From Lachnospiraceae bacterium (GTDB lineage Bacteria; Bacillota; Clostridia; Lachnospirales; Lachnospiraceae), in the NCBI GenBank assembly GCA_014804345.1, contig JAAUZZ010000007.1:45936-109935 (forward strand): a DNA stretch of 64,000 nt, read 5' to 3'. Below the pieces are notes generated by a model. The model made no database searches and had not been told where the DNA came from. It saw only the letters and a program-made list of their open reading frames with translations. Position numbers and translations under genes: made by a program. This document shows positions 2,536 to 51,884 of this stretch, piece after piece. Positions within the stretch are counted from its first letter, which is position 1. The number at the start of each line of letters is the position of its first letter.

Positions 2536-5500
2536 ATGGAACGTCTGAAAAAGGAAGGAAAGCGATTATTGTCGTTGCTTGTAGTGATTGCGATTATTGT
2601 GGTTTCTGTTTCACAGGAGCGCTTAACGGTGCATGCAGCTGAAATCGGCGAATACAGTATGGAATTTGATGCGTCAGAGGAGGATGAAGCCGAGCAATTC
2701 ATACCGGAGTCAGTAGAAATAGAGGAAACTGAACAGCTTGTACTTGAAACAATACAGGCGAAGGAAATCGAAATAGAAGAAAGCAGCATGACAAAAGACC
2801 GGATGATGTCTGAACCGATAGCTGCCACGGAAGAAACTTCGTTCACAGAAACCGAAGAAACAACCTTAATGCAGGGTGTGGAATCAGAGACAGAAATGGA
2901 AGAAATGGAAGAAACGGAAGAAACGGAAGTGCTGCAAAATGAATCGGAAAGCACTTCACTGGACACACAATTAGTAGCAATCCATTTTTCGGGAGACAAT
3001 GTTACCATAAAAGATTTCGACGGAAACATCATTGAGCATGAACTGCTTGTGGCAAAGGGAACAAAAGCAGTGGTATTTTCAGTTGAACCGTCAGAGGGCT
3101 ATGTAGTAAAAAGCGTGAAAGCGGACGAAGAAAATTTCCAAGTTTCATTTAAGGAGGGAACATCTGCCAACCAGTATATCGCATCTCCAGATGATAGAGA
3201 GAATGGATATGTAGGCGATAAATGGATACATATTGAAACCGTGCCGGCGGAAAACCATACAATGCATATTTTTTATCCTTCTGCTCTTGTTTCGGATTGT
3301 ATGGAAGACGTTATTATTGCAAACGGTGATGTATGGAGAGAGGACTGCCCTGAGGATATGACTGTTTCCAACGCATCTGACATTGGTGTATACATAAAAA
3401 TCGGGAAAACGCAAGGATCTGCAATATGGATTCCGGAAATATCTGTCACTTTTTTCAATGAAGATAACATTGGCTATACAAAAACGCTGTCATATCAAAG
3501 AGACATAAATTCCATGAACACAAAAGAAAAGGAATTGTTACAGCAAGGATACTATATTTTTCATTTGGGACAACGGTATAACATTTTTAGCATATCAATT
3601 GATTTAAATGAATGCTATCAGGTACAGACTGTAACAACAGGATTTCCGGGAAACGTCCGCATTTTCAACTACATACCGGATGGTTATGACGCTCAAGGCA
3701 ATGAAAAATGGCGTAAAGAAGAGATAAAAGATACGTTTGTGACAGAACGTAATAAAGCGACTTTTTTACAGGCAGAGTGGGAAGATACATCGGATCATGC
3801 GTATAAATGGTGCAAACTAAATGTTCTTTCGGATTGGAAAACATCTATTAAAAACATAACTATGGAGGGCATTGAGGGAGAAGTACAGGAAATATTTATC
3901 TCCGAAGAAACAACAATAGAGTTTGTGTTAAATCCCCATACAATATCTTTTGGGTATTATATAGGCGATCTTACGGATATCAGCGTAGGTAGCGGCGCGA
4001 AATTGTCTGAAGATCAGCGAACCATTGAAGTATATGGTGGAGATAATGTATCGCTGAACTTTTCACTTATCGATGGATTACAACTGAACAAAGTAATCGA
4101 TCGTTCCGGGGCAAAATGGTCCGTGCAGGAGAAGGATGGTAAATATACAATTACGCTCAATGATATGGAGGCGCTTTATAACATAAAAGAAATCGGTATC
4201 AGCGTATTAGATTTACAGGATCGGTTTTCATTGTCTGACGCGAGGGCAGGGTGTCAGATAACAAGCTATAAATTCAAAAATATCAAAAGTGGTATCCCTG
4301 TCTATACCGGAGAAGCGATTGAAGTCGAAACTATGACATTAAGTGCGATCACTCCTAATCGTGAAAATGGTTCAGGGTCCAGAACAGTGACACTTTCTAT
4401 GGATAAAGATTTTACTGTTTCATACGTCAATAACATCAATGCCGGAGAGGCTCGAGTGCTTCTTACGGCGATGCCGGATTCCTATGATTTTCGGGGAAGC
4501 ATTGCGTATTCTTTTACGATTCATAAGGCAGAAGCTCTGCAAAGACAGGAAAAAACACTTCAGGTAGAAACAGGGAATCAGCAGTATACACATCAGATAA
4601 ACCTTTCGGAACTGTTTCAGATAAAACAACCGAATGGGCAGGAACTTATCCCTCTGGGTTATAGGATTGAGTATTGTGATAAAGGAGATGTACTGATTCC
4701 TGATAAGGATCCGCTTCTTAAGGGAAACATACTCACCTATACGATCCGTGATGGTGCGGATAAAAATTCTCCTATGGCGGATTTGTCGGTTGCCGCTTTT
4801 TTTGACAATTATCAGGATTGTGAGTTGATAATCCATATACAGGCAGTCCAAAAACAAAAGATGACGCTTGGCGGAACGGTAACCGTATCAGATAAAGAGT
4901 ATGACGGCAAAGGAGTTTCACTCAATGCGGACGGGCTGCGGATTTTATCTATTGAAGGGACAAATGATTCAATTTCGGAAAAACTGTTAAATCAAATTAA
5001 AGAAACACTGGACTATCGCTATACAGGAATAAATGGCACCGTATATACTTCAAATAACGCGCCAACGGACGTAGGAACATACAAAGTAGAAGCAAAAGTT
5101 TCTGAAGATAATCCGGACTTTAAATCAGAGTATATGGATGTCGGAACATTTCGGATAAGTCAAAGAAAGGTCAGCGTTATTGCGGATGATGTGAAGCTGT
5201 ATTTGCAAGATACAATACCGACACAATATAGTTATCACACAGACGGTCTAGCGAAAGGTGATGTTGTAAGTACAAAACCACTTGTAAGCTGCAATATACA
5301 AAGTGCAGATGTATTGACAGAGTATCCGGTAAATGTTGACGTAGCAGTCGTGAAAATAGCCAATGCTACAGGAAAAGACGTGACAGCCAACTATGTTATT
5401 GCAGGACAGGAAGGTAAATTAGCAGTGCGTGAGCCCGAACAGGGCAGCTATTCGGTCATATACACATGGGTAGATCCTCTGGATCCTCTGAATACGCAAA

Positions 5501-7743
5501 AAGATATCAGACGTTCCGGAAACGAGTCGGGAAAACTAATCAAAAAGCCGATAGACCCGACAGCGGACGGATACATATTTTTAGGTTGGTATACGGACGA
5601 AACGTCAGACAGAGAATGGGATTTCGACACAGATGTTATCCAAGGCAACCTGACCCTCTATGCCGGATGGTCAAAGCATGCGGTTGAGAGTGGCGGTATG
5701 GCGTTATGTGTGCAGGAAATTCTGCCGCAGACATACACCGGAAAGGCGATTAAACCTACAGTTGTTGTATATGCGGCCGACGGTAAGATACGCCTGAAAT
5801 ACAAAACAGATTACACAATAACTTATAAAAATAATATCAATGCGGATACAAAAGCATTTCCGGTTGAAGTACCGCAAGGTGGAATCGGCGAAACATTAGG
5901 TGACACAACACAGGGATTTAACAGTGCTTTACCTTATGTCATCATTCAAGGAAAAGGCAATTATACAGGAACCGTTTATGTCAATTTCCATATTCGTCCG
6001 GCAGATATTGCAACAGTACAGACGAATGCATCGGAATATGTCTTAAAATATACGGATCAGTTTGAGGAAAATCCCGGCAAATATGGAACGGTTGTAACGC
6101 AGTTTAAATACAAAAAGAAAGGGTTGGGATACAATAAAGATTATACACTTGCGGTTCAGAAAGTGGACGGCGAATCTGCCACCGTGCCGTTGAATGCGAA
6201 AGGACAGCTTCCTCTGACAGCGGGTGCGTATCAGGTTACGATTGCCGGAAAAAACAATTTTACCGGTGAGATAACGAAAAACGTGTATGTTGCAGATAAA
6301 ACACGGTTGTTTAAAAATGCAAAGGTTACCTGTAAAGCGGTAATATCCAATGCCACAAAGGAAAAACTGGAAGCTGGCATACAGCCTGAAAACCTTGTGG
6401 TGAATATGAATGGCATCGTTCTTACAGAAGCAGACTATACAGTTGAGTGTACCAATAATCATGCAATCGGCATCGCGACGGTGAATGTGAGACCAAAAGG
6501 AAGCGACTACATAGGCTCAAAGAGTATTACATTTAAAATCAATGGAACCGATTTCAAGGAAAGCACCATACAAATGTCCGGATGGCAGGATGAAATGCCA
6601 TATACAGGCAAAGCTCTGACTCAGAACAATGTTGTACTCAAAACAAATGATGGTAGAGTTCTGACATATGGAGAGGATTATTTCATCAGCTACAAAAATA
6701 ACATCAAAAAGGGCGCCGCACAGATGGTATTTACAGCAAATCCTGCTTCCGGGTACAGCGGAAGCTTCAGCAAAAAATTTAAGATAGCGCCTATGGATTT
6801 AGAGGCAGCCATTAATGAAGGTATGATTTCAGTAAATGGTGCAGAGAAGACAGCTTCGGGGTGGAAGTTGTTGGAAAGCGTGCCCTATCAAAAGAGAGGT
6901 GTTGAACCAAAAGACAAAGTTTCACTGCAATTAACGATATCCGATACTGTTCTAAGATTTGGAAAAGACATGGATTATACTGTAAAGTATACCAATAATA
7001 AGACCGTTTCAGATGGAACGGCATATATGACACTGAAAGGTATAGGTAACTATACAGGAAGCATAGACATCTATTTTGATATTACGAAGGCTTCGCTTTT
7101 CCGAAGTTATCAGGAGGGCAGGGTGACCATAACAACAGCGTCAATTAAGGTATCATATCCTTACGGACGGCATTACGAGGATTATGGTGATGGATATGGA
7201 GAATGGATAGAGGATAGCTTAAAAGATCCGGACCGTAAATTTGAACCTGCAATAACGATAAAAGATGGAAACGCTGCCTTGAAAAAGGATGTGGATTTTA
7301 CCGTCGAATATATTGGAAATACAAGAAGTGACCTGGAAGGTGGTGATGTTCTTGTAGCGGTAATTAAAGGCATAGGAGCATATGGCAATGATGATGATGA
7401 GATTGAACTGAATGTATCAGTTAATCGAAGTGTTCTTTCTGCCGCTAAAGTTGAAGTTACTTATGAGAATGCGTTTTCCTATACCGGAGAACAAATCATG
7501 CCGGAAGTCGAGGAAGTCAGATATAAGACTTTTAATGGATATGGAAGAGAGGATGACGAAGATTATGAGCCGCCTGAATGGGAAACACTCAAGCAAGACG
7601 AGGATTATAGGATTGAGTATACGAAAAATATTGCCAAAGGTACCGGTACCATTAAGATTGTCGGTATCGGCGGTTATACGGGCAGTGTATCCAAATCATT
7701 TAAAATCAATTCCAAGGCAATATATAACAAAATATCTGATTGA
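2536..7743 (+). CDS. Large secreted surface protein with InlB B-repeat-like segment and repeated 'DYTxxYxNN' Ig-like modules
   Basis: N-terminal signal-like hydrophobic segment; YTWVDPLDPLN...FLGWYTDETSDREWDFDTDVIQGNLTLYAGW; repeated DYTITYKNNINA/DFTVSYVNNINA/DYFISYKNNIKK; ORF open from 2515. Confidence 0.75.
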   Translation: MERLKKEGKRLLSLLVVIAIIVVSVSQERLTVHAAEIGEYSMEFDASEEDEAEQFIPESVEIEETEQLVLETIQAKEIEIEESSMTKDRMMSEPIAATEETSFTETEETTLMQGVESETEMEEMEETEETEVLQNESESTSLDTQLVAIHFSGDNVTIKDFDGNIIEHELLVAKGTKAVVFSVEPSEGYVVKSVKADEENFQVSFKEGTSANQYIASPDDRENGYVGDKWIHIETVPAENHTMHIFYPSALVSDCMEDVIIANGDVWREDCPEDMTVSNASDIGVYIKIGKTQGSAIWIPEISVTFFNEDNIGYTKTLSYQRDINSMNTKEKELLQQGYYIFHLGQRYNIFSISIDLNECYQVQTVTTGFPGNVRIFNYIPDGYDAQGNEKWRKEEIKDTFVTERNKATFLQAEWEDTSDHAYKWCKLNVLSDWKTSIKNITMEGIEGEVQEIFISEETTIEFVLNPHTISFGYYIGDLTDISVGSGAKLSEDQRTIEVYGGDNVSLNFSLIDGLQLNKVIDRSGAKWSVQEKDGKYTITLNDMEALYNIKEIGISVLDLQDRFSLSDARAGCQITSYKFKNIKSGIPVYTGEAIEVETMTLSAITPNRENGSGSRTVTLSMDKDFTVSYVNNINAGEARVLLTAMPDSYDFRGSIAYSFTIHKAEALQRQEKTLQVETGNQQYTHQINLSELFQIKQPNGQELIPLGYRIEYCDKGDVLIPDKDPLLKGNILTYTIRDGADKNSPMADLSVAAFFDNYQDCELIIHIQAVQKQKMTLGGTVTVSDKEYDGKGVSLNADGLRILSIEGTNDSISEKLLNQIKETLDYRYTGINGTVYTSNNAPTDVGTYKVEAKVSEDNPDFKSEYMDVGTFRISQRKVSVIADDVKLYLQDTIPTQYSYHTDGLAKGDVVSTKPLVSCNIQSADVLTEYPVNVDVAVVKIANATGKDVTANYVIAGQEGKLAVREPEQGSYSVIYTWVDPLDPLNTQKDIRRSGNESGKLIKKPIDPTADGYIFLGWYTDETSDREWDFDTDVIQGNLTLYAGWSKHAVESGGMALCVQEILPQTYTGKAIKPTVVVYAADGKIRLKYKTDYTITYKNNINADTKAFPVEVPQGGIGETLGDTTQGFNSALPYVIIQGKGNYTGTVYVNFHIRPADIATVQTNASEYVLKYTDQFEENPGKYGTVVTQFKYKKKGLGYNKDYTLAVQKVDGESATVPLNAKGQLPLTAGAYQVTIAGKNNFTGEITKNVYVADKTRLFKNAKVTCKAVISNATKEKLEAGIQPENLVVNMNGIVLTEADYTVECTNNHAIGIATVNVRPKGSDYIGSKSITFKINGTDFKESTIQMSGWQDEMPYTGKALTQNNVVLKTNDGRVLTYGEDYFISYKNNIKKGAAQMVFTANPASGYSGSFSKKFKIAPMDLEAAINEGMISVNGAEKTASGWKLLESVPYQKRGVEPKDKVSLQLTISDTVLRFGKDMDYTVKYTNNKTVSDGTAYMTLKGIGNYTGSIDIYFDITKASLFRSYQEGRVTITTASIKVSYPYGRHYEDYGDGYGEWIEDSLKDPDRKFEPAITIKDGNAALKKDVDFTVEYIGNTRSDLEGGDVLVAVIKGIGAYGNDDDEIELNVSVNRSVLSAAKVEVTYENAFSYTGEQIMPEVEEVRYKTFNGYGREDDEDYEPPEWETLKQDEDYRIEYTKNIAKGTGTIKIVGIGGYTGSVSKSFKINSKAIYNKISD

Positions 7744-11897: not shown

Positions 11898-12416
11898 ATG
11901 GAGATACAGAAAATGGTGATTCGACATGCAACAGAAAAAGATATCTCTCCGATAATGGAAATTTATGAATATGCCCGACGTTTTATGGCAGAGCATGGCA
12001 ATCCCAATCAATGGGGACCGACCAATTGGCCGCCCAAAGAATTGATTCATTCTGATATTGCAACGGGGAATAGTTATATTTGTACTTATGGGGATAAAAT
12101 TGTTGGTACATTTTTCTTTACGCAAGGAAAGGATATCGAACCCACTTATAATAGGATAGAAAACGGCGCTTGGCTGGATGACAGTCCTTATGGTGTAATC
12201 CATCGATTGGCAGGAAACGGAACTGTAAATGGCATTGGAACTTTCTGCATCAATTGGGCATTTGAAAAATGTGGACACTTGCGTGTGGATACGCACGGTG
12301 ACAATCGGGTCATGCAAAATTTACTCGAAAAAAATGGTTTCATTCAATGTGGAACAATATATGTAGAAGAGGATTGCTATCCACGATTGGCATATGAAAA
12401 AATTAGGAAATCATAA
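11898..12416 (+). CDS. GNAT family N-acetyltransferase
   Basis: MVIRHATEKDISPIMEIYEYARRFM...LRVDTHGDNRVMQNLLEKNGFIQCGTIYV. Confidence 0.85.
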   Translation: MEIQKMVIRHATEKDISPIMEIYEYARRFMAEHGNPNQWGPTNWPPKELIHSDIATGNSYICTYGDKIVGTFFFTQGKDIEPTYNRIENGAWLDDSPYGVIHRLAGNGTVNGIGTFCINWAFEKCGHLRVDTHGDNRVMQNLLEKNGFIQCGTIYVEEDCYPRLAYEKIRKS

Positions 12417-12518: not shown

Positions 12519-13919
12519 TTATTCTTGTGACTTTGGCAATCTGTATCGAAACAGCGCATGGCTGAGTTTCTTCCAGCTAAACGGAATAAGCGGGTAGAGG
12601 TAGCTCTGACCGGATACCATCTTGTTTGATACAATCGCGACGAAAAACAGTATTGTGCCTGCAAGAAATCCCCAGAACTGGAAAAGGGCAGTCAGTATCA
12701 GATTGAAGATTCTGAAAAACTTAATCGCATATCCGAGTTCATAGCTTGGATGTGTATAGTTTGAAATCGCAACAAATGCCATATACAGCATGACTTCGGA
12801 GTTAAACCAGCCGCTTTTTACGGAAAATTCTCCAAGAATCAAAGCCGCCATGACGCTCAAAGGAGTCGAAAGCATGTTTGGTGTGTTGACTGCGGCAAGG
12901 CGCAGACCGTCAATGGCAAGCTCCAAAATCAAAAACTGCCAAATCAGCGGCACATTGATATCTTCTTTCACAATAATAAATTCAAACCCGGGCGGAATCC
13001 ACTCTGGATTTTGCATTAACAGCAAAAAGACAGGCGTAACAAAGTAGGTCAGCAGCAAAATGATAAAGCGCGAAAGTCTTAAATAGGAGCCTGTAACAGG
13101 CGGAAAATAGAAATCGTCCGCTTCCTGCACCATGTCGAGGACACTGATCGGAAGGATCATCGCGGAGGGAGAGTTGTCAACTAAAATAATGATGCTTCCC
13201 TCAAGCACCTGTGCGGCGGCAGCGTCAGGGCGTTCCGTATATTTAAACTTCGGAAAAGGATTATACCATTTTGAGGTATAAAGGCACTCAGCAAGGCTTT
13301 CCTGATTTAAGGTGAGCGCATCGACCTTAATGTCTTTGATGCGGTCACGTATTTTTTTCAAAAATTCCTTGTCAACGCGGCTGTCCATATAGCAGATGGC
13401 GATGTCTGTTTTGGATGCCTTTCCGGCGCTGAGCATTTCAACTCTCAGGTCTGTGCTTCTGATACGGCGCCGTATCAATGCTGTGTTAAATACAATGGTT
13501 TCCACAAAACCGTCCTTAGATCCTCTCAAAACCTTATCCTTTTCGGGTTCTGATACACCGCGGGCGGGATAAGTGCGTGCGTCTATCATAATACAATCGT
13601 CAAATCCTTCAATAATGATTGCAAATACACCACAAAGCACATTTTTTGAAATTTCATTAAAATCTTTTGAAAGATCTACTTCCACATGCGGCAGAAGTTT
13701 GCTCAGACCTTTCGCATTTTGCGGCATATCCTCACTTTTTAGGCCCATGAGAAACTGCAAAAGCTTTTGCATCATCTCGTCTTTGCAAAAACCGTCTATA
13801 AAATAAAAGACTGCATTTTTTCCGCCGATTGTGATTTCGCGGTTTACGATATCAAAGCATTCACTAACATGCAGCATATTATTTAAGTAGTTCATATTTT
13901 CCTCAAAAGTCTGATACAT
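12519..13919 (-). CDS. GerA/SpoVAF family spore germination protein
   Basis: GerA-family signature LVEGSIIILVDNSPSAMILPIS-like segment, RLSRFIILLLTYFVTPVFL; ggaggtatatt RBS before MYQTF. Confidence 0.88.
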   Translation of the reverse strand: MYQTFEENMNYLNNMLHVSECFDIVNREITIGGKNAVFYFIDGFCKDEMMQKLLQFLMGLKSEDMPQNAKGLSKLLPHVEVDLSKDFNEISKNVLCGVFAIIIEGFDDCIMIDARTYPARGVSEPEKDKVLRGSKDGFVETIVFNTALIRRRIRSTDLRVEMLSAGKASKTDIAICYMDSRVDKEFLKKIRDRIKDIKVDALTLNQESLAECLYTSKWYNPFPKFKYTERPDAAAAQVLEGSIIILVDNSPSAMILPISVLDMVQEADDFYFPPVTGSYLRLSRFIILLLTYFVTPVFLLLMQNPEWIPPGFEFIIVKEDINVPLIWQFLILELAIDGLRLAAVNTPNMLSTPLSVMAALILGEFSVKSGWFNSEVMLYMAFVAISNYTHPSYELGYAIKFFRIFNLILTALFQFWGFLAGTILFFVAIVSNKMVSGQSYLYPLIPFSWKKLSHALFRYRLPKSQE

Positions 13920-21457: not shown

Positions 21458-23248
21458 ATGGAAAATTATATGGAAAAACTGCGGGCTTTCAAAGAAAAGC
21501 CTCTGAAAGAAAAACTAAAAATAATAACGCCATATGCAATAGCATCTTTGTTCTGTAGCAGGATAGCGGAACTATGCAGACTATGCAGCGGAAACATATC
21601 AAAGATAATAATAAATTTAGAGTATCTTTATAAAACATTTCCAAAATTTGCGTTAAGTGATCTGCTTATTGGCATTACAGTCGGTTGTTTCCTTGTGTTT
21701 TATGTAAAACTTGAAAACAAACTGAAACGAAAAAACACAAGAACGGGAGAGGAATATGGAGCGTCGCGATGGGGCACTGCCGATGACATTAAGCCTTTTA
21801 TCGATCCGGATCCGTTTAATAACATTATTTTGTCAAAGACAGAATTTCTTTCGATGAATCCGAGAATGAAGAAATTTAATCTGAACCGAAATAAGCATGT
21901 GGTTATTTACGGTGGATCCGGAAGCGGTAAAACATACGGGATTGTAAAACCAAACCTTTACCAGCTTCACAGCAGCTATGTCCTTACCGATCCGAAAGGC
22001 ACACTTCTTCCGGAAACAGGTAATCTTTTTGCTAAAAAAGGTTACAGGATAAAGGTATTTGACACGGTTAATCTTGCAAACAGTATGCATTATAATCCGT
22101 TTGCATACATAAAGCAGCCCAAGGACATCCTCACTCTTGCAAATGTTCTGTTTACGAACCTAAAACCAGAGAATGCCGGAACGCCGCCCGATCCGTTTTT
22201 TGACCAGGCTGCGCTTCTCTGGTTACAGGCTTCTATAGGATATCTATGGTACGAAGCGCCGAAGGAGGAACAGAATATTCCCACACTGTTAGAAATCCTC
22301 GAAGCGGATGAAGTTAAAGAGGATGATGAAAATTACAAGAATGCAGTGGACATGCTTTTTGAGGAATTGGAACAGAAAAATAAAAGGCATTTTGCCGTAA
22401 AGCAACGCAAAAAATATAAAAAAGCCGCAGGCAAAACTGCGAAGTCAATCTTAATAACATTAGGCGCGTATCTTGCCCCGTTTGATATTCCTGAAGTAAG
22501 CGAAATCGTACAGGATGATGAACTTGAATTTGATACATTCGGTGATCCGGATCAGAAGAGCATCCTGTATATCATTATTTCAGACACGGATACGACATAT
22601 AACTTTCTGCCGGCGATGATATTTACCCAAATGTTTAATGTACTATGCTATAAGGCAGATAAAGAAATGGGAGGAAAGCTGAAGACACCAGTGCAGTTTG
22701 TGTTAGACGAGTTTGCAAATATAGGAAAAATACCGAAATTTGACGTGCTGATCGCAACAATCCGAAGCCGATTAATGTCCTGCATTATCATTCTCCAAAC
22801 GCAGAGCCAGTTGAAAACAAATTATAAAGATGCCGCTGAAACAATAACCGGCAACTGTGACACTGAGATTTTTCTTGGAGGCAAAGAGAAAAGCACTGTC
22901 AAGGACATAGAGGAATCGCTTGGTGATGAAACCATTGACTTATTTAATGAGTCAAGGACATTCAGCAATCAGGAAAGCAGCGGATTAAATTACAACAAGG
23001 TAGGACGGAAACTGAAGAATATATTTGAACTGAAAACAATGGACAGAGATAAGTGTATCGTACAGATATCGGGGCTTCCGCCATTCTTTAGTGACAAATA
23101 CAGACTGGAAATGCATCCGAATTATAAATATACGGCAGATGCCGATGAACGAAACTGGTTTGACTTTCAAAAATATCGAAAGCATGCAGAGAATGCTGTT
23201 TCGGACATTAAATTTCATAATACGGATACATATAAGGTTATCGCATAA
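21458..23248 (+). CDS. VirD4/PcfC-type coupling protein
   Basis: GGSGSGKTYGIVKPNLYQLHSSYVLTDPKGTLL; FVLDEFANIGKIPKFDVLIATIRSRLMSCIIILQTQSQLK. Confidence 0.93.
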   Translation: MENYMEKLRAFKEKPLKEKLKIITPYAIASLFCSRIAELCRLCSGNISKIIINLEYLYKTFPKFALSDLLIGITVGCFLVFYVKLENKLKRKNTRTGEEYGASRWGTADDIKPFIDPDPFNNIILSKTEFLSMNPRMKKFNLNRNKHVVIYGGSGSGKTYGIVKPNLYQLHSSYVLTDPKGTLLPETGNLFAKKGYRIKVFDTVNLANSMHYNPFAYIKQPKDILTLANVLFTNLKPENAGTPPDPFFDQAALLWLQASIGYLWYEAPKEEQNIPTLLEILEADEVKEDDENYKNAVDMLFEELEQKNKRHFAVKQRKKYKKAAGKTAKSILITLGAYLAPFDIPEVSEIVQDDELEFDTFGDPDQKSILYIIISDTDTTYNFLPAMIFTQMFNVLCYKADKEMGGKLKTPVQFVLDEFANIGKIPKFDVLIATIRSRLMSCIIILQTQSQLKTNYKDAAETITGNCDTEIFLGGKEKSTVKDIEESLGDETIDLFNESRTFSNQESSGLNYNKVGRKLKNIFELKTMDRDKCIVQISGLPPFFSDKYRLEMHPNYKYTADADERNWFDFQKYRKHAENAVSDIKFHNTDTYKVIA

Positions 23249-40326: not shown

Positions 40327-42338
40327 TGGCAGTTGATAAATTGGATAACAGGAACAGGCTTCTTCAGCAGATGGGGCTTATATACAATCAGATCATGGAT
40401 CTTAATGAGCAGATGACAGACGCGCTGCAAAAAGCCGTAGACATTGACATAAGCGTTACAGGAGGAGTATCTGACATTACAAAGGAATTTATGGAAGGAT
40501 TCCACTATAAGATCGATGAACGTGACAGGGTGGTAAGTGAGCAGAACAAATGGGAATATGACCAGCTTCCACCGGTTAAAGAAACAACACAACAGGAGCA
40601 GGATACAGCTATTCCAAAAAGAAACATAGCACAGGAAGAACTGAACAAGTTACTGGGTGAGCACAGAGAAAGGCACGATGCGGGAAATTATGAGCCGCTT
40701 GATTTATCAAACTGTGTCTTTGATAAGATTGAATTTACCGGAAATCTAAGCGATATCAATCTTATGAACAGTGAATTTAACGAGTGTATTTTTCGCAATG
40801 CAGACGTGGAGAACTCGTATCTGTCAAATGCCGAATTCATGAATACGGCGTTTTCTGACTGTACATTTGATAATTCAAACTTTTATGGCGCAGAAATGGG
40901 ATATTGTGCGATGGAATATACCATTTATACTGACTGTGATTTCAGCAAAGCTGCAATGGTAGCATGTGATATTAGTTCTTCAGGAATGAATGATTGCCAT
41001 ATGAAAGATGCCGTAGTGTCCGACACAAAATTTGAGGATACTATAATAAATCATTGCCACGGAATAGAAAGTATTGATTTTTCCGGAGTGAACAAAGATT
41101 TGAGAAATTCTGCTGAAAAGATTTTTAACAATCCGGAGCACACCTTTGATTTTGAGATTATATCAGATGATGAGATGGCAATTTCAGCACGTTTCGGAGA
41201 AGAATCCGTAACAGAAATATATAAAGTCGATTATAATGCTGATACACATAAGATTGACAATGTCATTGACACACACAATCTATCGCCTATGTCTACGGAA
41301 TGGGCGCTTATTAACAGAGCGGTTGATCTGATCAGAATGGACATCCTTAAAGGTTTTCATAAGCGGCAGATTGATAACAAGGAAATATCAAGGTTTTCGC
41401 CGTGTGTAATGGTTGAAACTTCAGATGCTCTGGGGATAAAGTGGAATACATTATACGATCTAAAGGAATTTTCCGACAGATTGGAATCGTATGGCAGAGT
41501 TTCAAACATCAGCGGATATGATAACGTGAATTTCACTGTAATGTTTGATCCGGGAGATGGCAGCATCAGAAAATGTCATGACGGATATAATATACGCAGT
41601 GATAAGGAAAGCCTTATCGAAAGACTGGAAAGCAGTAAACTCTTTAATAATGCAGAGATTAACTATCTCAAAAATTATATTTCCGGAGAAATGAGTCCTG
41701 TTATCGACACAGCAAAAACGCAGGATCAGGCTGCCGCACCTGCAGAACCGGAAGCACCTCAAAAAGAAGAAAGTTCCCGGAAAGAAAATAAGCAAACGGC
41801 TACTCCGGCTAAATATGTAGCTTTGGTGTATGTGAAAGGATCCGATGCGAGAACACGCGTAACGGGCACATCTCCGGAAAAAATAATCGAGCTGTGCCGG
41901 GAATGGAATGCCGATCGCGCATCCGATAACCAGCTTGAAACTGCATACATAAAGAAATATAATCCCGGAACAAAAGCATATGAAAATTTCGGCAAATATG
42001 ATGTCAGCACAGGCGTTGATCTGCAACCGATTTATCTTGATCTGCCTCCACTTGGAAAAGAAAAATTTGTCCAGGTTACAGCGGAGCTCAAGGCAAATGG
42101 AGCCAAATATAATTCTGAAATGAAAAAGTGGTATGTAACGCAAGCCAATGATTTATCATTGTTCAAAGACTACCTTTCAAAGCAATCAGAGCCTCAAATT
42201 GGCACAAAAGGAGAGGATGGCAAGAAAAAGTCCGTGATTGGTAATTTGAACCAAAATAAGAGCCATTTGAATGAAAAAGGGAATAAGGGAACTCAAGCGC
42301 ATGAGCAGCAACGAAAACATGAAGAGCCGGCACGATAG
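40326..42338 (+). CDS. Pentapeptide-repeat protein with C-terminal DUF5710-like module
   Basis: LSDINLMNSEFNECIFRNADVENSYLSNAEFMNTAFSDCTFDNSNF; C-terminal QPIYLDLPPLGKEKF...NGAKYNSEMKKWYV. Confidence 0.75.
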   Translation: MAVDKLDNRNRLLQQMGLIYNQIMDLNEQMTDALQKAVDIDISVTGGVSDITKEFMEGFHYKIDERDRVVSEQNKWEYDQLPPVKETTQQEQDTAIPKRNIAQEELNKLLGEHRERHDAGNYEPLDLSNCVFDKIEFTGNLSDINLMNSEFNECIFRNADVENSYLSNAEFMNTAFSDCTFDNSNFYGAEMGYCAMEYTIYTDCDFSKAAMVACDISSSGMNDCHMKDAVVSDTKFEDTIINHCHGIESIDFSGVNKDLRNSAEKIFNNPEHTFDFEIISDDEMAISARFGEESVTEIYKVDYNADTHKIDNVIDTHNLSPMSTEWALINRAVDLIRMDILKGFHKRQIDNKEISRFSPCVMVETSDALGIKWNTLYDLKEFSDRLESYGRVSNISGYDNVNFTVMFDPGDGSIRKCHDGYNIRSDKESLIERLESSKLFNNAEINYLKNYISGEMSPVIDTAKTQDQAAAPAEPEAPQKEESSRKENKQTATPAKYVALVYVKGSDARTRVTGTSPEKIIELCREWNADRASDNQLETAYIKKYNPGTKAYENFGKYDVSTGVDLQPIYLDLPPLGKEKFVQVTAELKANGAKYNSEMKKWYVTQANDLSLFKDYLSKQSEPQIGTKGEDGKKKSVIGNLNQNKSHLNEKGNKGTQAHEQQRKHEEPAR

Positions 42339-42350
42339 TCATGCACGAAC

Positions 42351-42397
42351 AGGGACTTTGGGAGAGCAGATTGTTCTCCCAAAGCCCTTATTTTTAC
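42351..42397 (+). terminator. Hairpin between pentapeptide gene and mobC
   Basis: ctttgggag...ctcccaaag then cccttattttta. Confidence 0.6.
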
Positions 42398-42429
42398 TGT
42401 CATTTATGATAAAACAGGAGGTTCATGAT

Positions 42430-42783
42430 ATGGGAATAAAAACAAAAAAGTACCGTGTACGTGACAGAGATATTCACATAATGGTTACAGAATATGAGGA
42501 TAGACTTATCAGACAGAGAATGAAAGCAGCAGGAAAAGGCACTCTTAGGGAATACCTTGTTGACATGGGAATTAATGGCTACGTCATAAATGTAGATTAT
42601 TCGGAAATGAAAAATCTTGTTTACGAGATAAATAAAATAGGCATCAATATCAATCAGATAGCATACAAAGCAAACAGTACAAATCACATAAGTCAAATCG
42701 ACATCGATGAGCTTAAAGATAAAGTAGATTCAATCTGGCAGCTTTTAAGATCTAAATTTTTTCAACTTCCAAGAGAAAAGTAA
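42430..42783 (+). CDS. mobC: MobC-like relaxosome accessory protein
   Basis: EINKIGININQIAYKANSTNHISQIDIDELKDKVDSIW; immediately before relaxase; upstream extension of the ORF is spurious. Confidence 0.85.
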   Translation: MGIKTKKYRVRDRDIHIMVTEYEDRLIRQRMKAAGKGTLREYLVDMGINGYVINVDYSEMKNLVYEINKIGININQIAYKANSTNHISQIDIDELKDKVDSIWQLLRSKFFQLPREK

Positions 42784-42795
42784 AGAGGTAACTTT

Positions 42796-44280
42796 ATGGC
42801 AACAAGTAAATTAAAACCAATCAAAAAAACGCTTAGCAAGGCAATTTCGTATATTATAGATCCAAATAAAACTGCCGCCGGAAGTCTTGTATCTTCTTTT
42901 GGCTGTGGCATAGGAACGGCTGATATTGAAATGCAAATGACCGCGCAAAAAGGAAATGGAATTGGTGACCGAGTAGCATATCACTTGATGCAGTCATTTT
43001 CTCCGGATGATGATATAACGCCTGAAAAAGCACATCAGATAGGAATGGAATTTGCTCAAAAAGTCCTAAAAGGAAAATTTGAATTTGTTATCGCAACCCA
43101 TATTGATAAAGACCACATACATAATCATATTATTTTCAATGCCGTAAATTTTTACGATCACAAAAAGTATCATACCGGAGTATGGGAAAAAGAGAAGAAA
43201 CGGATCCGAAGGATAAATGATGATCTGTGTAAAAAAAATAATTTATCTGTAATTGAAAACACATCAGGAAGGAAAGGATATGAATGTCACGAACGCAAGA
43301 AAAGCAGCTCATCTAAAAGATCGTGGAAAGATATAATTAGAAATGATATTGATGAGGTAATCAAAATTGCAAAATCTTTTGATGAATTCCTGCAAATTAT
43401 GGAGTCGGAAAAAAACTATAAAATTGCAAGACGGGGCAGCTTCTTACGAGTGCATCCGCCGGGATATGATGATGACACATATTACAGACTTAGCAAAAAA
43501 TTAGGTGAAGCATATACTGAGGAAGCGATCAGGGACAGGATTGAACATCCGGGAAATGCATATAAATACCAAACAATAATTTCCAAAGGAACCAGCAAGC
43601 GATATGTATTCAAACCTAATCCAAATAAAATAAATCATATAATTGATATTTCCAAAAATAAAAAAGCGAAAGAGTCATCACATTATGAACAGGCATTGGT
43701 AAGGAGCAATATTGATACACTTAATAGAACAATGAATTTCCTTATAAAACATAATCTATCGACACCAAATCAATTTGCAGATTACTATAATTCAAAAATG
43801 GAAGAATATGAACTGCTACGAAAAAGTGTCAAATCAAGCGATAACAGACAGTTAGCCTGTTCGGAAAAAATCAAATTTTTGCAGAATTATAAAAAGTATC
43901 ATAATCTTCATTCTGCTGCAATGCGTGCAGGAACTAAATCCAATTTTTACAAAGAACACGTAAATGAGATTATATTATTTGAGTCATCAAAGATGTATTT
44001 TGAACGCATTGATGAAAATCCGGATGAAATGAACCTTGCCGATTTATTTGCAAAATATAAAGAGATTAAGCAAGATAAACTGGACGATGAGAAACTGTAT
44101 GAAGCAATACAAGCAGAAATAAAAGAACTTGATGTGATCCGGAAAAATGTGGAAGATACACTTAAAATAGAACTTATTCATAAAGAAGACGAGGCAGAAC
44201 AGATAAGACGACAGAGTGAAGAGAATGCAAGAAATACTGAACAGGATAAAAATGATAAAAGCGGAGATATTGGCTATTGA
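42796..44280 (+). CDS. MOBP-type relaxase
   Basis: FVIATHIDKDHIHNHIIFNAVNF (HxDxxHxHxH-type motif); LSKAISYIIDPNKT. Confidence 0.93.
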   Translation: MATSKLKPIKKTLSKAISYIIDPNKTAAGSLVSSFGCGIGTADIEMQMTAQKGNGIGDRVAYHLMQSFSPDDDITPEKAHQIGMEFAQKVLKGKFEFVIATHIDKDHIHNHIIFNAVNFYDHKKYHTGVWEKEKKRIRRINDDLCKKNNLSVIENTSGRKGYECHERKKSSSSKRSWKDIIRNDIDEVIKIAKSFDEFLQIMESEKNYKIARRGSFLRVHPPGYDDDTYYRLSKKLGEAYTEEAIRDRIEHPGNAYKYQTIISKGTSKRYVFKPNPNKINHIIDISKNKKAKESSHYEQALVRSNIDTLNRTMNFLIKHNLSTPNQFADYYNSKMEEYELLRKSVKSSDNRQLACSEKIKFLQNYKKYHNLHSAAMRAGTKSNFYKEHVNEIILFESSKMYFERIDENPDEMNLADLFAKYKEIKQDKLDDEKLYEAIQAEIKELDVIRKNVEDTLKIELIHKEDEAEQIRRQSEENARNTEQDKNDKSGDIGY

Positions 44281-44359
44281 TGATTTTTTAAAGACTGCAT
44301 AAACTGTTATTAAAGACAGCGTGCAGTCTTTGTTTTTTTGCAGAAAAACAGATTTTTTT

Positions 44360-44609
44360 CATTTTCAAGGAAAATGATTTTACAGGGGTTTGGGGATTTC
44401 CCCAACAAGCAAAATATTTTGAAATCTGCCGTTAGGCAGGTTTTAAAATATGGGCAAGTGTGTACACACTTGCGTTGCTTGCTATTCCGTGAAAATGGGG
44501 ATTTTCGCGGGACAGGTGGCTGCTTTAGCAGCCTTTCCGACTGCGATGCAGTCGTGCGTTTTGGCTGCATAGGCAGCCTGATCAAAACGCAAAATGCCGT
44601 ATCCGGCAT
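44360..44609. ncRNA. Array of nine consecutive hairpins after the relaxase gene (candidate structured RNA or oriT)
   Basis: Stem-loops at 44360-76, 44390-405, 44414-51, 44454-73, 44487-510, 44518-33, 44539-53, 44556-90, 44594-609. Confidence 0.7.
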
Positions 44610-44646
44610 AAAAGCGCGAAACAATAAATAATATGTGTTATCATAA

Positions 44647-44675
44647 TTGCGATAAAATGTAGATTATGGTATATT
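44647..44675 (+). promoter_or_regulatory. Promoter of holin-like toxin
   Basis: TTGCGA - 17 nt - TATATT. Confidence 0.6.
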
Positions 44676-44745
44676 ATGGACAGGAAACAATCGTGTTACA
44701 AGGTGGTAACCTCCCGGATCTTACAAAAGAGGGGAGGTGGTGTAT

Positions 44746-44841
44746 ATGAGTACGTACGAAGTTTTGACATTGTTGATCCTTTTTGGTACATTTCTCGTTG
44801 CACTGCTTGCCTACATAGATAGGAATAACAAGCGAAAATAA
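44746..44841 (+). CDS. Holin-like type I toxin peptide, 31 aa
   Basis: MSTYEVLTLLILFGTFLVALLAYIDRNNKRK; ggggaggtgg RBS opposed by upstream acctccc. Confidence 0.85.
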   Translation: MSTYEVLTLLILFGTFLVALLAYIDRNNKRK

Positions 44842-44930
44842 AAAAGCCTACCTTGTCACTTGCCCGATGAAGGTAGGCTCATAGCATTACCGGAGGTCAA
44901 CCACTTTGTGGGCGATTGCTTCCTTTTTAT
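44838..44930 (-). ncRNA. Predicted antisense antitoxin RNA (~93 nt)
   Basis: Minus-strand TTGAAA - 17 - TACATT (44937-44965) and terminator stem agcctacctt/aaggtaggct with U-run on the minus strand overlapping the toxin 3' end. Confidence 0.7.
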
Positions 44931-45103
44931 ATTTCTAATGTAGCATATCAAAGAAAGTTTTTCAACAGTTTGGGAAAAAATGATTAAGATATCAAGTTAA
45001 ATAATGCAGGAAAAGGATAAATAATAGATACTAAATCGTATAAAGTATGATATAATAAGTAAAAAGGAACACAATAAAATAGTGAAAGGGGGAAAGCGTC
45101 CTT

Positions 45104-45487
45104 ATGGAGAAAGTAAAATACAGTTGTCAGGAGTTCGAATTATTTAAGGGAAATGTATGCCACATGGTAAAAGAATATGGACAGCTCCAATTCTTGGAAG
45201 ATACGTTGGTATCCAATCAGGTCGAAAAGCTTTGGAATGAAGGACAACAATTATATGCATTATATTTACTGGCAATGGTTGACTATCTTTCGGGACTAAA
45301 TAATATACCGCTGTATACTAAATATAATTATTTGAGAAATCATAAAATACAGAAAAAAGTATATCCGCTTTCCTTAATTCTTGCCGCAAAAATGGATGAT
45401 GCAGATATTGATGAGCTTGCAAAAGATGCAATACCTGAATTTTTGAGATTTAACATAGTGGAGGGAAATGTGTTTGATGTCGTATGA
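45104..45487 (+). CDS. Small partner protein of nucleotidyltransferase (possible antitoxin)
   Basis: Overlaps the next ORF by 20 nt; 127 aa. Confidence 0.55.
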   Translation: MEKVKYSCQEFELFKGNVCHMVKEYGQLQFLEDTLVSNQVEKLWNEGQQLYALYLLAMVDYLSGLNNIPLYTKYNYLRNHKIQKKVYPLSLILAAKMDDADIDELAKDAIPEFLRFNIVEGNVFDVV

Positions 45488-46334
45488 ATTTCAAAGTTTT
45501 TCCAAGGAGAACATAGACCATTATTTTTTGATGCTAAGTAAAGAATTAAAGAAAGAGTTTGGACGGAATGCAGAAATCGAATTAGTAGTAGTTGGAGGAG
45601 CTGCAGTTCTACTGAATTATGGTTTTAGAAATTCAACTATGGATATAGATGCAATCGTTGCATCACATTCATCTATCAAAGATGCAGTAAATAGAGTTAG
45701 TGATATATGTGGGTTGCCTAATGGCTGGATTAATTCTGATTTTCAAAAGACAAAATCATATTCGCCCAAACTAATAGCGCATAGTAAATTTTATAAAAAA
45801 TATAATCAGACACTTGTAGTCAGAACGGTGGCAGCAGAATATCTTATTGCGATGAAATTATCATCCCTACGTCCATATAAATATGATAGGTCAGATATAG
45901 TTGGTATTATCCAAACACAAGATTCAAACAATTTCATAACAAAAGAAAGAGTAGATAATGCAGTCAGAGAATTGTATGGTGGGTGGGAGAATTTACCTAA
46001 AGAAGCACAATCAATAATTGACAAAATATATGATGATATCAATAACAAGGAATTGTACTCGATTATTCGAAATGAAGAAATTGGTAATAAAGAATTACTT
46101 ATAGATTTTGAAAATAAATATGGTAATGTATTAGATGAGGAAAATCTTGAAGATATACTTAAAAAAATTTCTGAACATAAGCAAGCTGAAAATAAGGGAG
46201 TTGAAAGAAAAAGCATAAAGCTTCGGTTAGAAGAAGCGCAACAAAAGGCAGATGAATATAATGCGCATAGAGATCAAGACAGTCAAGTGCATATAACGGA
46301 ATCACATAAGGAAAAGCATGAATCAACAAGATGA
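45468..46334 (+). CDS. DUF6036-like nucleotidyltransferase
   Basis: ELVVVGGAAVLLNYGFRNSTMDIDAIVA; AAEYLIAMKLSSLRPYKYDRSDI. Confidence 0.7.
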   Translation: MCLMSYEFQSFSKENIDHYFLMLSKELKKEFGRNAEIELVVVGGAAVLLNYGFRNSTMDIDAIVASHSSIKDAVNRVSDICGLPNGWINSDFQKTKSYSPKLIAHSKFYKKYNQTLVVRTVAAEYLIAMKLSSLRPYKYDRSDIVGIIQTQDSNNFITKERVDNAVRELYGGWENLPKEAQSIIDKIYDDINNKELYSIIRNEEIGNKELLIDFENKYGNVLDEENLEDILKKISEHKQAENKGVERKSIKLRLEEAQQKADEYNAHRDQDSQVHITESHKEKHESTR

Positions 46335-49610: not shown

Positions 49611-49882
49611 CTATCAGAAGACCAATTATTATATAATCTGAACATTGACAAATTATCTATATATATAGGTACATATAAAGTCCGGAAACGTCCTTCATAT
49701 TGAGAAATTATGCATTTATACCTATACAATCGTATACAGCAGAAAGTATTTATCTGCTGATGCAGCTTCTGGATTCGTTGCTGTTTAAATGCATCAGGGG
49801 TAAGTGGTAACACTCCGTAGTCGATGATATATGAAAGAATAGAATAATGATACTCCCGCGTTGAACGCTTCACAGCATTGCG

Positions 49883-49942
49883 CGGCGCACCCACAAGCAT
49901 GGGACGGGGTGAGATTCCCGTGGAGCTGACCAACAGCCGCCG
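49883..49942 (+). ncRNA. Cloverleaf-like potential RNA fold
   Basis: Closing stem cggcg/cgccg around three hairpins ccca/tggg, acggg/cccgt, gctg/cagc. Confidence 0.4.
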
Positions 49943-50312: not shown

Positions 50313-51884
50313 ATGAATGAGATTGTAGCAATTTACAGCAGATTATCCGAAGAGGATAAAGACAAACTGAACGAAGAGGATGAGAGCCGGAGCATCCAAA
50401 ATCAGAAAAGCCTGTTGATCTCTTATGCGACATCGCATAATTGGGAAATTTATCAGATTTATTCTGATGATGACTACAAAGGCAGTGACCGATCCAGACC
50501 GGCATTTAATCAGCTTTTAAAGGATGCTGAAAATCACAAATTTAATATTGTATTATGCAAATCGCAAAGCAGATTTACCCGTGAGCTGGAGCTTGTTGAA
50601 AAAATCATACACGGAGATTTTGCAGAGTGGGGGATCCGTTTTGTCGGACTTGCAGATAACGCTGATACGGCAAATAAAGGAAACAAAAAATCCCGGCAGA
50701 TTAACGGACTTGTAAATGAATGGTATTTGGAGGACTTATCTGATAATATCAAAACAGTTCTTACGGATCATCGCAAAAAAGGCATGCATATCGGCGCCTT
50801 TGCGTTATATGGCTACCAAAAAGATCCGGATCAAAAAGGACATCTGATCGTTGATCCTGAAGCAGCCGCGGTGGTAAAAGAAGTATTTGAACTTTATGCT
50901 GCCGGAACAGGGCGCACAAATATTGCAAGAATACTAAATGAAAAAGGCATTCCAAATCCGATGGAATACAAGAAGAGAAAAGGCTTAAAATATGGGGGAG
51001 CGAATGTCCATGCGCATAGTTCACTATGGAAGTATTATTCTGTGTCTTCGATGTTGGAAAATGAGATGTACATCGGAAACATGGTGCAGGGCAAGTATGA
51101 AAATCCTACATATAAAAGCAAGCACAGCCGTCCTGTACCGAGAGAGAAATGGATTCGTGTAGAGGGCACACATGAGCCGATCATTGACAAGGAGCTGTGG
51201 GAACGCGTACAAAAGCGCAGGGAAGAAAAAGCAAAACCCATGTGCACCGGAAAAATCGGAATTTTTGCAGCAAAGACCAAATGCATGTATTGTGGTTATA
51301 CGCTGCGTTCCGCAACTGCAAAAGGCTTTAAGTATCTGAAATGTCCGACAAAATACATAAGCAGCAATGCATGTAAAGGTGCATTTATTGCACAGCGGTT
51401 TTTGGAACAGGCGGTTCTGGGAGAATTAAACAGCATTATATCAAGCTACTTTGATGAAGCTTCAGCAGAACCTAAGATTTTGGCTGCCAAAAAGCGTGAA
51501 GCGGAAAAGCGAAAGTTAAAACAGGAAATTTCAGCATGTAATTCCCAGATTGAACATTTGAAAAAAGCTGTACAAAATTTATATGTTGACAAGGCAAATG
51601 ATATTATATCCAATGAAGAATACGCCGAATTTAAAGCCGGCTTTGTGGATCAGATAAAGCAGCTCACTAATCAGCGTGAAGAAAAGCAGCGCATCATAGA
51701 ACTGTGGGAAGAGGAGATCCATAATATCCAGTCCAGAGAAAATATATTGCAGAAATACCGCAATGTTGAAAAACTGGACAGGAACATCATGGAAACGCTG
51801 ATCGATTATATTGAGATAGGGCGTTGCGAACACAAGGTTCATAGAAATGATCTGCCGCCGATCATAATCCACTGGAGATTTTAA
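50313..51884 (+). CDS. Large serine recombinase (ICE integrase)
   Basis: IVAIYSRLSEEDKDKLNEEDESRSIQNQ; YKGSDRSRPAFNQLL; GIRFVGLADNADTANKGNKKSRQINGLVNEWYLEDLS; zinc-ribbon CMYCGYTLR. Confidence 0.95.
   Translation: MNEIVAIYSRLSEEDKDKLNEEDESRSIQNQKSLLISYATSHNWEIYQIYSDDDYKGSDRSRPAFNQLLKDAENHKFNIVLCKSQSRFTRELELVEKIIHGDFAEWGIRFVGLADNADTANKGNKKSRQINGLVNEWYLEDLSDNIKTVLTDHRKKGMHIGAFALYGYQKDPDQKGHLIVDPEAAAVVKEVFELYAAGTGRTNIARILNEKGIPNPMEYKKRKGLKYGGANVHAHSSLWKYYSVSSMLENEMYIGNMVQGKYENPTYKSKHSRPVPREKWIRVEGTHEPIIDKELWERVQKRREEKAKPMCTGKIGIFAAKTKCMYCGYTLRSATAKGFKYLKCPTKYISSNACKGAFIAQRFLEQAVLGELNSIISSYFDEASAEPKILAAKKREAEKRKLKQEISACNSQIEHLKKAVQNLYVDKANDIISNEEYAEFKAGFVDQIKQLTNQREEKQRIIELWEEEIHNIQSRENILQKYRNVEKLDRNIMETLIDYIEIGRCEHKVHRNDLPPIIIHWRF
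50423..50440. repeat. Dispersed palindrome copy 5 (inside integrase)
   Basis: TTATGCGACATCGCATAA. Confidence 0.85.

Follow-up and report, generated by a model that had tools for sequence, protein, structure and literature searches.

The DNA just downstream of a relaxase gene in a Lachnospiraceae bacterium (contig JAAUZZ010000007.1) consists almost entirely of stem-loops, and it was not clear whether these serve as an oriT, as a single-strand origin (sso) or as a structured noncoding RNA (ncRNA), the functions that the original prediction had proposed for them. We address this question in a stretch of 64,000 nucleotides (the window), whose numbering is used throughout unless another source is named. 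Inspection of inverted repeats in the window showed that 44359-44609 is packed with nine stem-loops, at 44359-44377, 44390-44405 (P0), 44414-44451 (P2), 44454-44473 (P3), 44487-44510 (H5), 44518-44533 (H6), 44538-44554 (H7), 44555-44591 (H8) and 44594-44609 (H9). All nine lay at the coordinates claimed beforehand. Present as described were also the perfect 20-bp palindrome that forms P3, the 17-pair stem of P2 (44414-44430 with 44435-44451, loop GTTA), whose non-Watson-Crick pairs are two G.T only, and the two-tier hairpin at 44556-44590, which can be extended to the limits of H8. In H5, the exceptions to Watson-Crick pairing are likewise G.T on the + strand.

The region 44281-44700 folded far more stably than its dinucleotide shuffles, with z-scores of -10.9 (RNA) and -10.2 (DNA) for the + strand and -11.7 (DNA) and -10.0 (RNA) for the - strand, and no shuffle matched the native folding energy on either strand. 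As single-stranded DNA, the left half (44389-44483) gave a z-score of -8.6 and the right half (44484-44611) one of -8.8. We also found a closing stem (P1) that had been overlooked, formed by 44406-44412 (CAAGCAA) and 44475-44481 (TTGCTTG). This stem encloses two hairpins, and thus yields a three-way junction. The array consists of two modules, a left one at 44383-44483 and a right one at 44484-44611.

The genes around the array describe its host. Upstream, on the + strand, lie mobC, for a NikA-like/MobC relaxosome protein (42271-42783; Pfam NikA-like 3.8e-12 and MobC 3e-10 on 42400-42783), and a gene for a MOBP-type relaxase (MobA/VirD2-like; 42796-44280; Pfam Relaxase 7.4e-37), whose product is 33.7% identical to the Tn1549 relaxase of Enterococcus faecium and E. 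faecalis plasmids. The relaxase operon ends in a terminator-like hairpin with a T run (44290-44338, +), in which the inverted repeat 44290-44299/44322-44331 is paired at 10 of 10 positions and is followed by GTTTTTTT. The window also carries T4SS genes, encoding VirD4 (21458-23248), VirB6, VirB4/PrgI and an M23 peptidase, as well as genes for a topoisomerase and a large serine recombinase (50313-51884). On the basis of these genes, the element is a Tn1549-like ICE.

The left module resembles the oriT of Tn1549, the vanB conjugative transposon with a MOBP relaxase and MobC. A published table places the Tn1549 oriT at 22239-22266, with the nic sequence RYGCTTG|C, and lists TGCTTG|CCA for pRJ6 (PMC7755788); we assigned the Tn1549 coordinates to the site copy beside mobC by rough coordinate arithmetic and by the nic motif. 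In the window, the 3' arm of P1 and the predicted nic form TTGCTTG|C at 44475-44482 on the + strand, with the cut between 44481 and 44482. This contains the GCTTG|C of the Tn1549-type (MOBP) oriT, although its first base is T, where RYGCTTG|C calls for R. The 32 bases at 44383-44414 recur with 100% identity immediately upstream of the mobC-relaxase genes in Tn1549-type (vanB) enterococcal plasmid regions. They include P0 (44390-44405, +; TTGGGG ATTT CCCCAA), a GGGG/CCCC hairpin common to both, and the 5' arm of P1 (44406-44412, +), which closes the junction in the fold and is also found in Tn1549 and its relatives. Common to both are, further, a CAAGC..GCTTGC frame that holds two hairpins and is about 65 nt long, and the side of the site relative to mobC-relaxase. 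The two systems differ in the stem sequences of P2 (44414-44451, +) and P3 (44454-44473, +), the latter ending 8 nt before the predicted nic, and in the mob genes, which point away from the oriT (divergent) in Tn1549 and towards it in the window. Moreover, the site is present three times in the Tn1549 region, and where it adjoins mobC, no hairpin module follows on the right.

To follow the site in other genomes, we used the pattern CCCCAACAAGC-N50-80-GCTTGC, which fixed only CCCCAACAAGC, GCTTGC and the length of the spacer. Of 397 genomes in the family, 36 contained it, a few of them by chance; a control with the reversed pattern gave 0 among the matches listed. Three matches whose flanks had no P0 hairpin (L116, L126 and L147) were probably due to chance and were excluded. 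The invariance of P1 is explained in part by the pattern, which demanded it. In contrast, the 5' arm of P0 was left free by the pattern and was nevertheless kept upstream of nearly all CCCCAACAAGC..GCTTGC instances.

The stems themselves varied in ways that preserved pairing. In P3, two-sided changes were seen in 8 of 8 pairs, indicating that selection on pairing maintains this inverted repeat just 5' of nic. P2 is a variable stem that MAFFT left unaligned, and it was therefore tested by swapping arms between elements: own arms scored 11.6 as compared to 5.3 for swapped arms, and the own arm was best in 21 of 30 cases. Over the whole structure, 43 cells had two-sided changes, as compared to 10.1 in shuffles. 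Non-Watson-Crick pairs in P2 and P3, read on the + strand of the site, were G.T in 33 cases versus A.C in 18, a weak strand bias. Covariation, which had been put forward as a check on the array, was thus found for P2 and P3. Across the class, 167 genomes were sampled, and a covariance model built on the site matched 41 of them. When closely related sites were compared in 49 pairs, identity was 1.0 across the last 20 nt before nic and fell to approximately 0.4-0.5 beyond +10. The conserved site thus ends where the published cut lies; relaxase-mediated joining that exchanged the right-hand side may be one reason for this.

The site was also linked to the relaxase gene. Among sites with a relaxase gene within 1.5 kb, the gene lay on the 5' side in all 32 distinct cases, mostly at 66-300 bp, and was on the same strand as the site in 28 and on the opposite strand in 4. 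We then searched 27 loci retrieved solely through the similarity of their relaxase proteins. The covariance model matched the site in 24 of them (22 at E below 0.001), with the relaxase always on the 5' side and mostly on the opposite strand. An oriT would be expected to keep its side while the gene strand is free; an RNA leader or a 3' UTR would not. In the window, too, the site adjoins genes for a MOBP relaxase related to that of Tn1549 and for MobC.

Thus, it appears highly probable (roughly 0.9) that the left module is the Tn1549-type oriT of this ICE, with cleavage, strand and direction being predictions. The nic sequence is taken from the literature, and the structure, conservation, covariation, linkage, side rule and conservation boundary are observations made here. 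Of the three functions in the original prediction, oriT is therefore strongly supported, for 44383-44483 only, by a conserved site with a predicted nic, by its location next to relaxase genes in dozens of elements and by covariation; the single-strand origin may apply to the right half (44484-44611), and the ncRNA became unlikely, as described below. The window oriT is a further example of the known Tn1549-type oriT, with an extra block of hairpins on the leading side.

For the window element, we infer cleavage at 44481/44482 and rightward transfer of the + strand. Once the element has excised, the left module would be bound by MobC and the MOBP relaxase, and the top (+) strand would extrude P0 and the three-way junction, in which P1 closes P2 and P3, presenting the nic sequence. 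The relaxase would then cut within TTGCTTG|CTATT and remain on the 5' end, and the + strand would be sent rightwards, the toxin-antitoxin side entering first and mobC and the relaxase gene last. The Tn1549 relaxase is described as preferring its oriT in cis (PMC6856555).

The toxin-antitoxin side holds a type I toxin-antitoxin-like locus that adjoins the oriT (44647-44965). It comprises a Hol_Tox toxin ORF on the + strand (44746-44841; Pfam Hol_Tox 5.7e-14; peptide MSTYEVLTLLILFGTFLVALLAYIDRNNKRK) and a terminator-like inverted repeat (44845-44879), and a promoter scan placed promoter-like sites for the toxin at 44647-44675 (+) and for an antisense transcript at 44965-44937 (-). Against Rfam, the locus gave a weak match to BsrG, below threshold (E 0.24). 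Two other contigs of the genome carry stretches that resemble its 5' region. In another element (L102), a short ORF with a hydrophobic product, located 3' of the site, resembled a Hol_Tox toxin in appearance; it had no Hol_Tox match, and the link was dropped. Further along the window, two overlapping genes at 45104-46334, the second encoding a DUF6036 nucleotidyltransferase, possibly form a toxin-antitoxin-like pair in the leading region, and 49844-49923 (+) matched the Rfam pemK RNA (RF02913, 52.2 bits versus a threshold of 34.8).

What, then, is the role of the right module (44484-44611, +), which folds as single-stranded DNA? It was seen in only four elements, being 88-89% identical in L002 and L003 and partly kept in L165, in which H8 and H9 recur and whose mob genes point the other way. 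H8 and H9 showed 100% pairing in four sequences with four two-sided pair changes, a result that depends on one diverged sequence, and in these sequences the right-module hairpins always lay to the right of nic. A third match to H8 (in G167), inside a predicted membrane-protein coding region, was rejected as due to chance. The oriTs of most relatives had no comparable structure right of nic, and a search of 72,556 plasmids at E up to 1 gave no match to the right module and no similarity to a known sso. The module shows conservation and pairing, yet is missing from most relatives and from plasmids, and we therefore regard it as real, folded and rare.

If the + strand is transferred, the DNA from 44482 onward enters the recipient first. 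The most natural reading, by analogy with sso1 of ICEBs1 (see below), is that the right module may help the recipient to start the complementary strand in an sso-like manner; we offer it as a tentative guess. A bolder proposal, which we consider somewhat unlikely, is that the module is dedicated to recipient entry and represents a new structural class, either of single-strand origins or of single-stranded-DNA promoters, fused to the oriT in one lineage of gut ICEs resembling Tn1549. Were the recipient-entry reading true, the start of transfer and the start of the second strand would form one folded unit of 230 nt.

The right module alone could instead be a promoter active in single-stranded DNA, like Frpo, for early expression in the recipient; this would compete with the sso-like function and leave the oriT untouched. 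The module lies in the predicted leading region beside the toxin-antitoxin-like locus, single-stranded-DNA promoters and toxin-antitoxin genes are typical of leading regions (PMC11541004), and Frpo/ssi of F-type plasmids is likewise folded leading-region DNA near an oriT and a toxin-antitoxin locus, a comparison of fold and position. An antisense RNA of the toxin locus could, in addition, be read from the entering + strand. However, unlike Frpo/ssi, the stems of the array have no promoter hexamers, the promoter scan finding no -35/-10 pair inside them, and the genes to its right are encoded on the + strand, so that they cannot be transcribed with the entering single strand as template. For the latter reason in particular, a single-strand promoter is less likely, and we consider it improbable.

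Could the entire 250-bp array be an sso, with hairpins in single-stranded DNA that host RNA polymerase recognizes and that prime second-strand synthesis? There is a precedent in ICEBs1, whose sso1 lies immediately downstream of nicK, forms three stem-loops as single-stranded DNA and functions in one orientation only (PMC4595007). The array is similarly structured intergenic DNA directly 3' of a relaxase gene, with several single-stranded-DNA hairpins, and its right module is on the strand predicted to enter. In contrast to sso1, however, its left half is an oriT with the nic sequence of Tn1549, located after relaxase genes of either orientation, and its right half lacks any match in the plasmid records at E up to 1. 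We therefore give this reading very little weight.

Slightly less credible still is a structured ncRNA, or a cis-regulatory leader on the + strand, that would regulate the relaxase or the downstream toxin. The strong RNA fold of the + strand with its G-U pairs would fit such a role, and SGI1 depends on a small RNA whose gene lies next to its oriT (PMC9299015). The terminator-like hairpin at 44290-44338, however, stands between the array and the relaxase gene, and the array lies upstream of the promoter predicted for the toxin. An Rfam scan of the array found no family at the gathering score; matches to lactis-plasmid (24.7 versus 70 bits) and RnaG (21.8 versus 153 bits) fell below threshold and were rejected. 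Nor is the strand relative to the neighboring gene fixed, same-strand cases prevailing among the pattern matches and opposite-strand cases among the model matches. The separation by a terminator-like hairpin, the lack of an Rfam family and the fixed side but variable strand relative to the relaxase make an ncRNA unlikely. Phage records gave no match to the array. Least probable of all are tandem terminators or an insulator shielding the oriT and the toxin from read-through transcription. The region does hold three terminator-like sites versus 0.6 expected, but most stems have no long T run after them and compensatory changes keep an ordered junction that ends at nic, where conservation is sharply bounded.

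The oriT reading of the left module has practical consequences. Sequence searches have difficulty finding the oriTs of Gram-positive ICEs, since most positions of such a site vary. The P0 hairpin and the CAAGC/GCTTG-closed three-way junction that leads up to nic lend themselves to a search by covariance model, which locates the oriT beside most relaxases of this family across the class. This would allow prediction of the direction of transfer and of the first-entering genes in Tn1549-like elements, some of which confer resistance to vancomycin. The model also exposes elements that carry the same site and have no relaxase.

Several elements carried more than one copy of the site. In a Tn1549-type element (L067), three oriT-like sites were found at 4068-4168 (-), 12001-12099 (+) and 13548-13648 (+). 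One of the three copies in the Tn1549 region is reversed, and two face outward around the relaxase segment; a copy between the topoisomerase gene and a YodL-domain gene faces away from the mobC copy. A similar outward-facing pair was present in L178, L179, G015 (contig C58), G443 and G540, and in the last two its second copy adjoins a long ORF. In L003, approximately 1.1 kb with an apparent reverse-strand gene (5482-6660 of that locus) lies between the relaxase gene and the oriT array, leaving the array intact, and L001 has the same start of this segment, followed by the end of the contig.

Other copies had no relaxase gene nearby, none being found within about 6 kb of the site in L099, L100, L111, L134 and L146. 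Copies of this kind, including the inverted ones described below, suggest that non-autonomous elements may use the site for mobilization in trans. In L099, L100 and L111, the relaxase-less copies adjoin genes for defense, namely an HKD+Snf2 candidate, a type I restriction enzyme and GajA/GajB. The oriT model also matched, with 48 bits, positions 4685-4781 of a Clostridium septicum plasmid of 5.3 kb (L068) that is typed as non-mobilizable and has no annotated relaxase. Finally, three relaxase-less loci (L175, 4209-5161; L176, 4311-5205; L177, 340-1124) have two inverted copies 0.6-0.8 kb apart that flank a tnpV-like gene (Pfam TnpV was tested on L175 only), and in L175 and L176 a large serine recombinase adjoins this segment.
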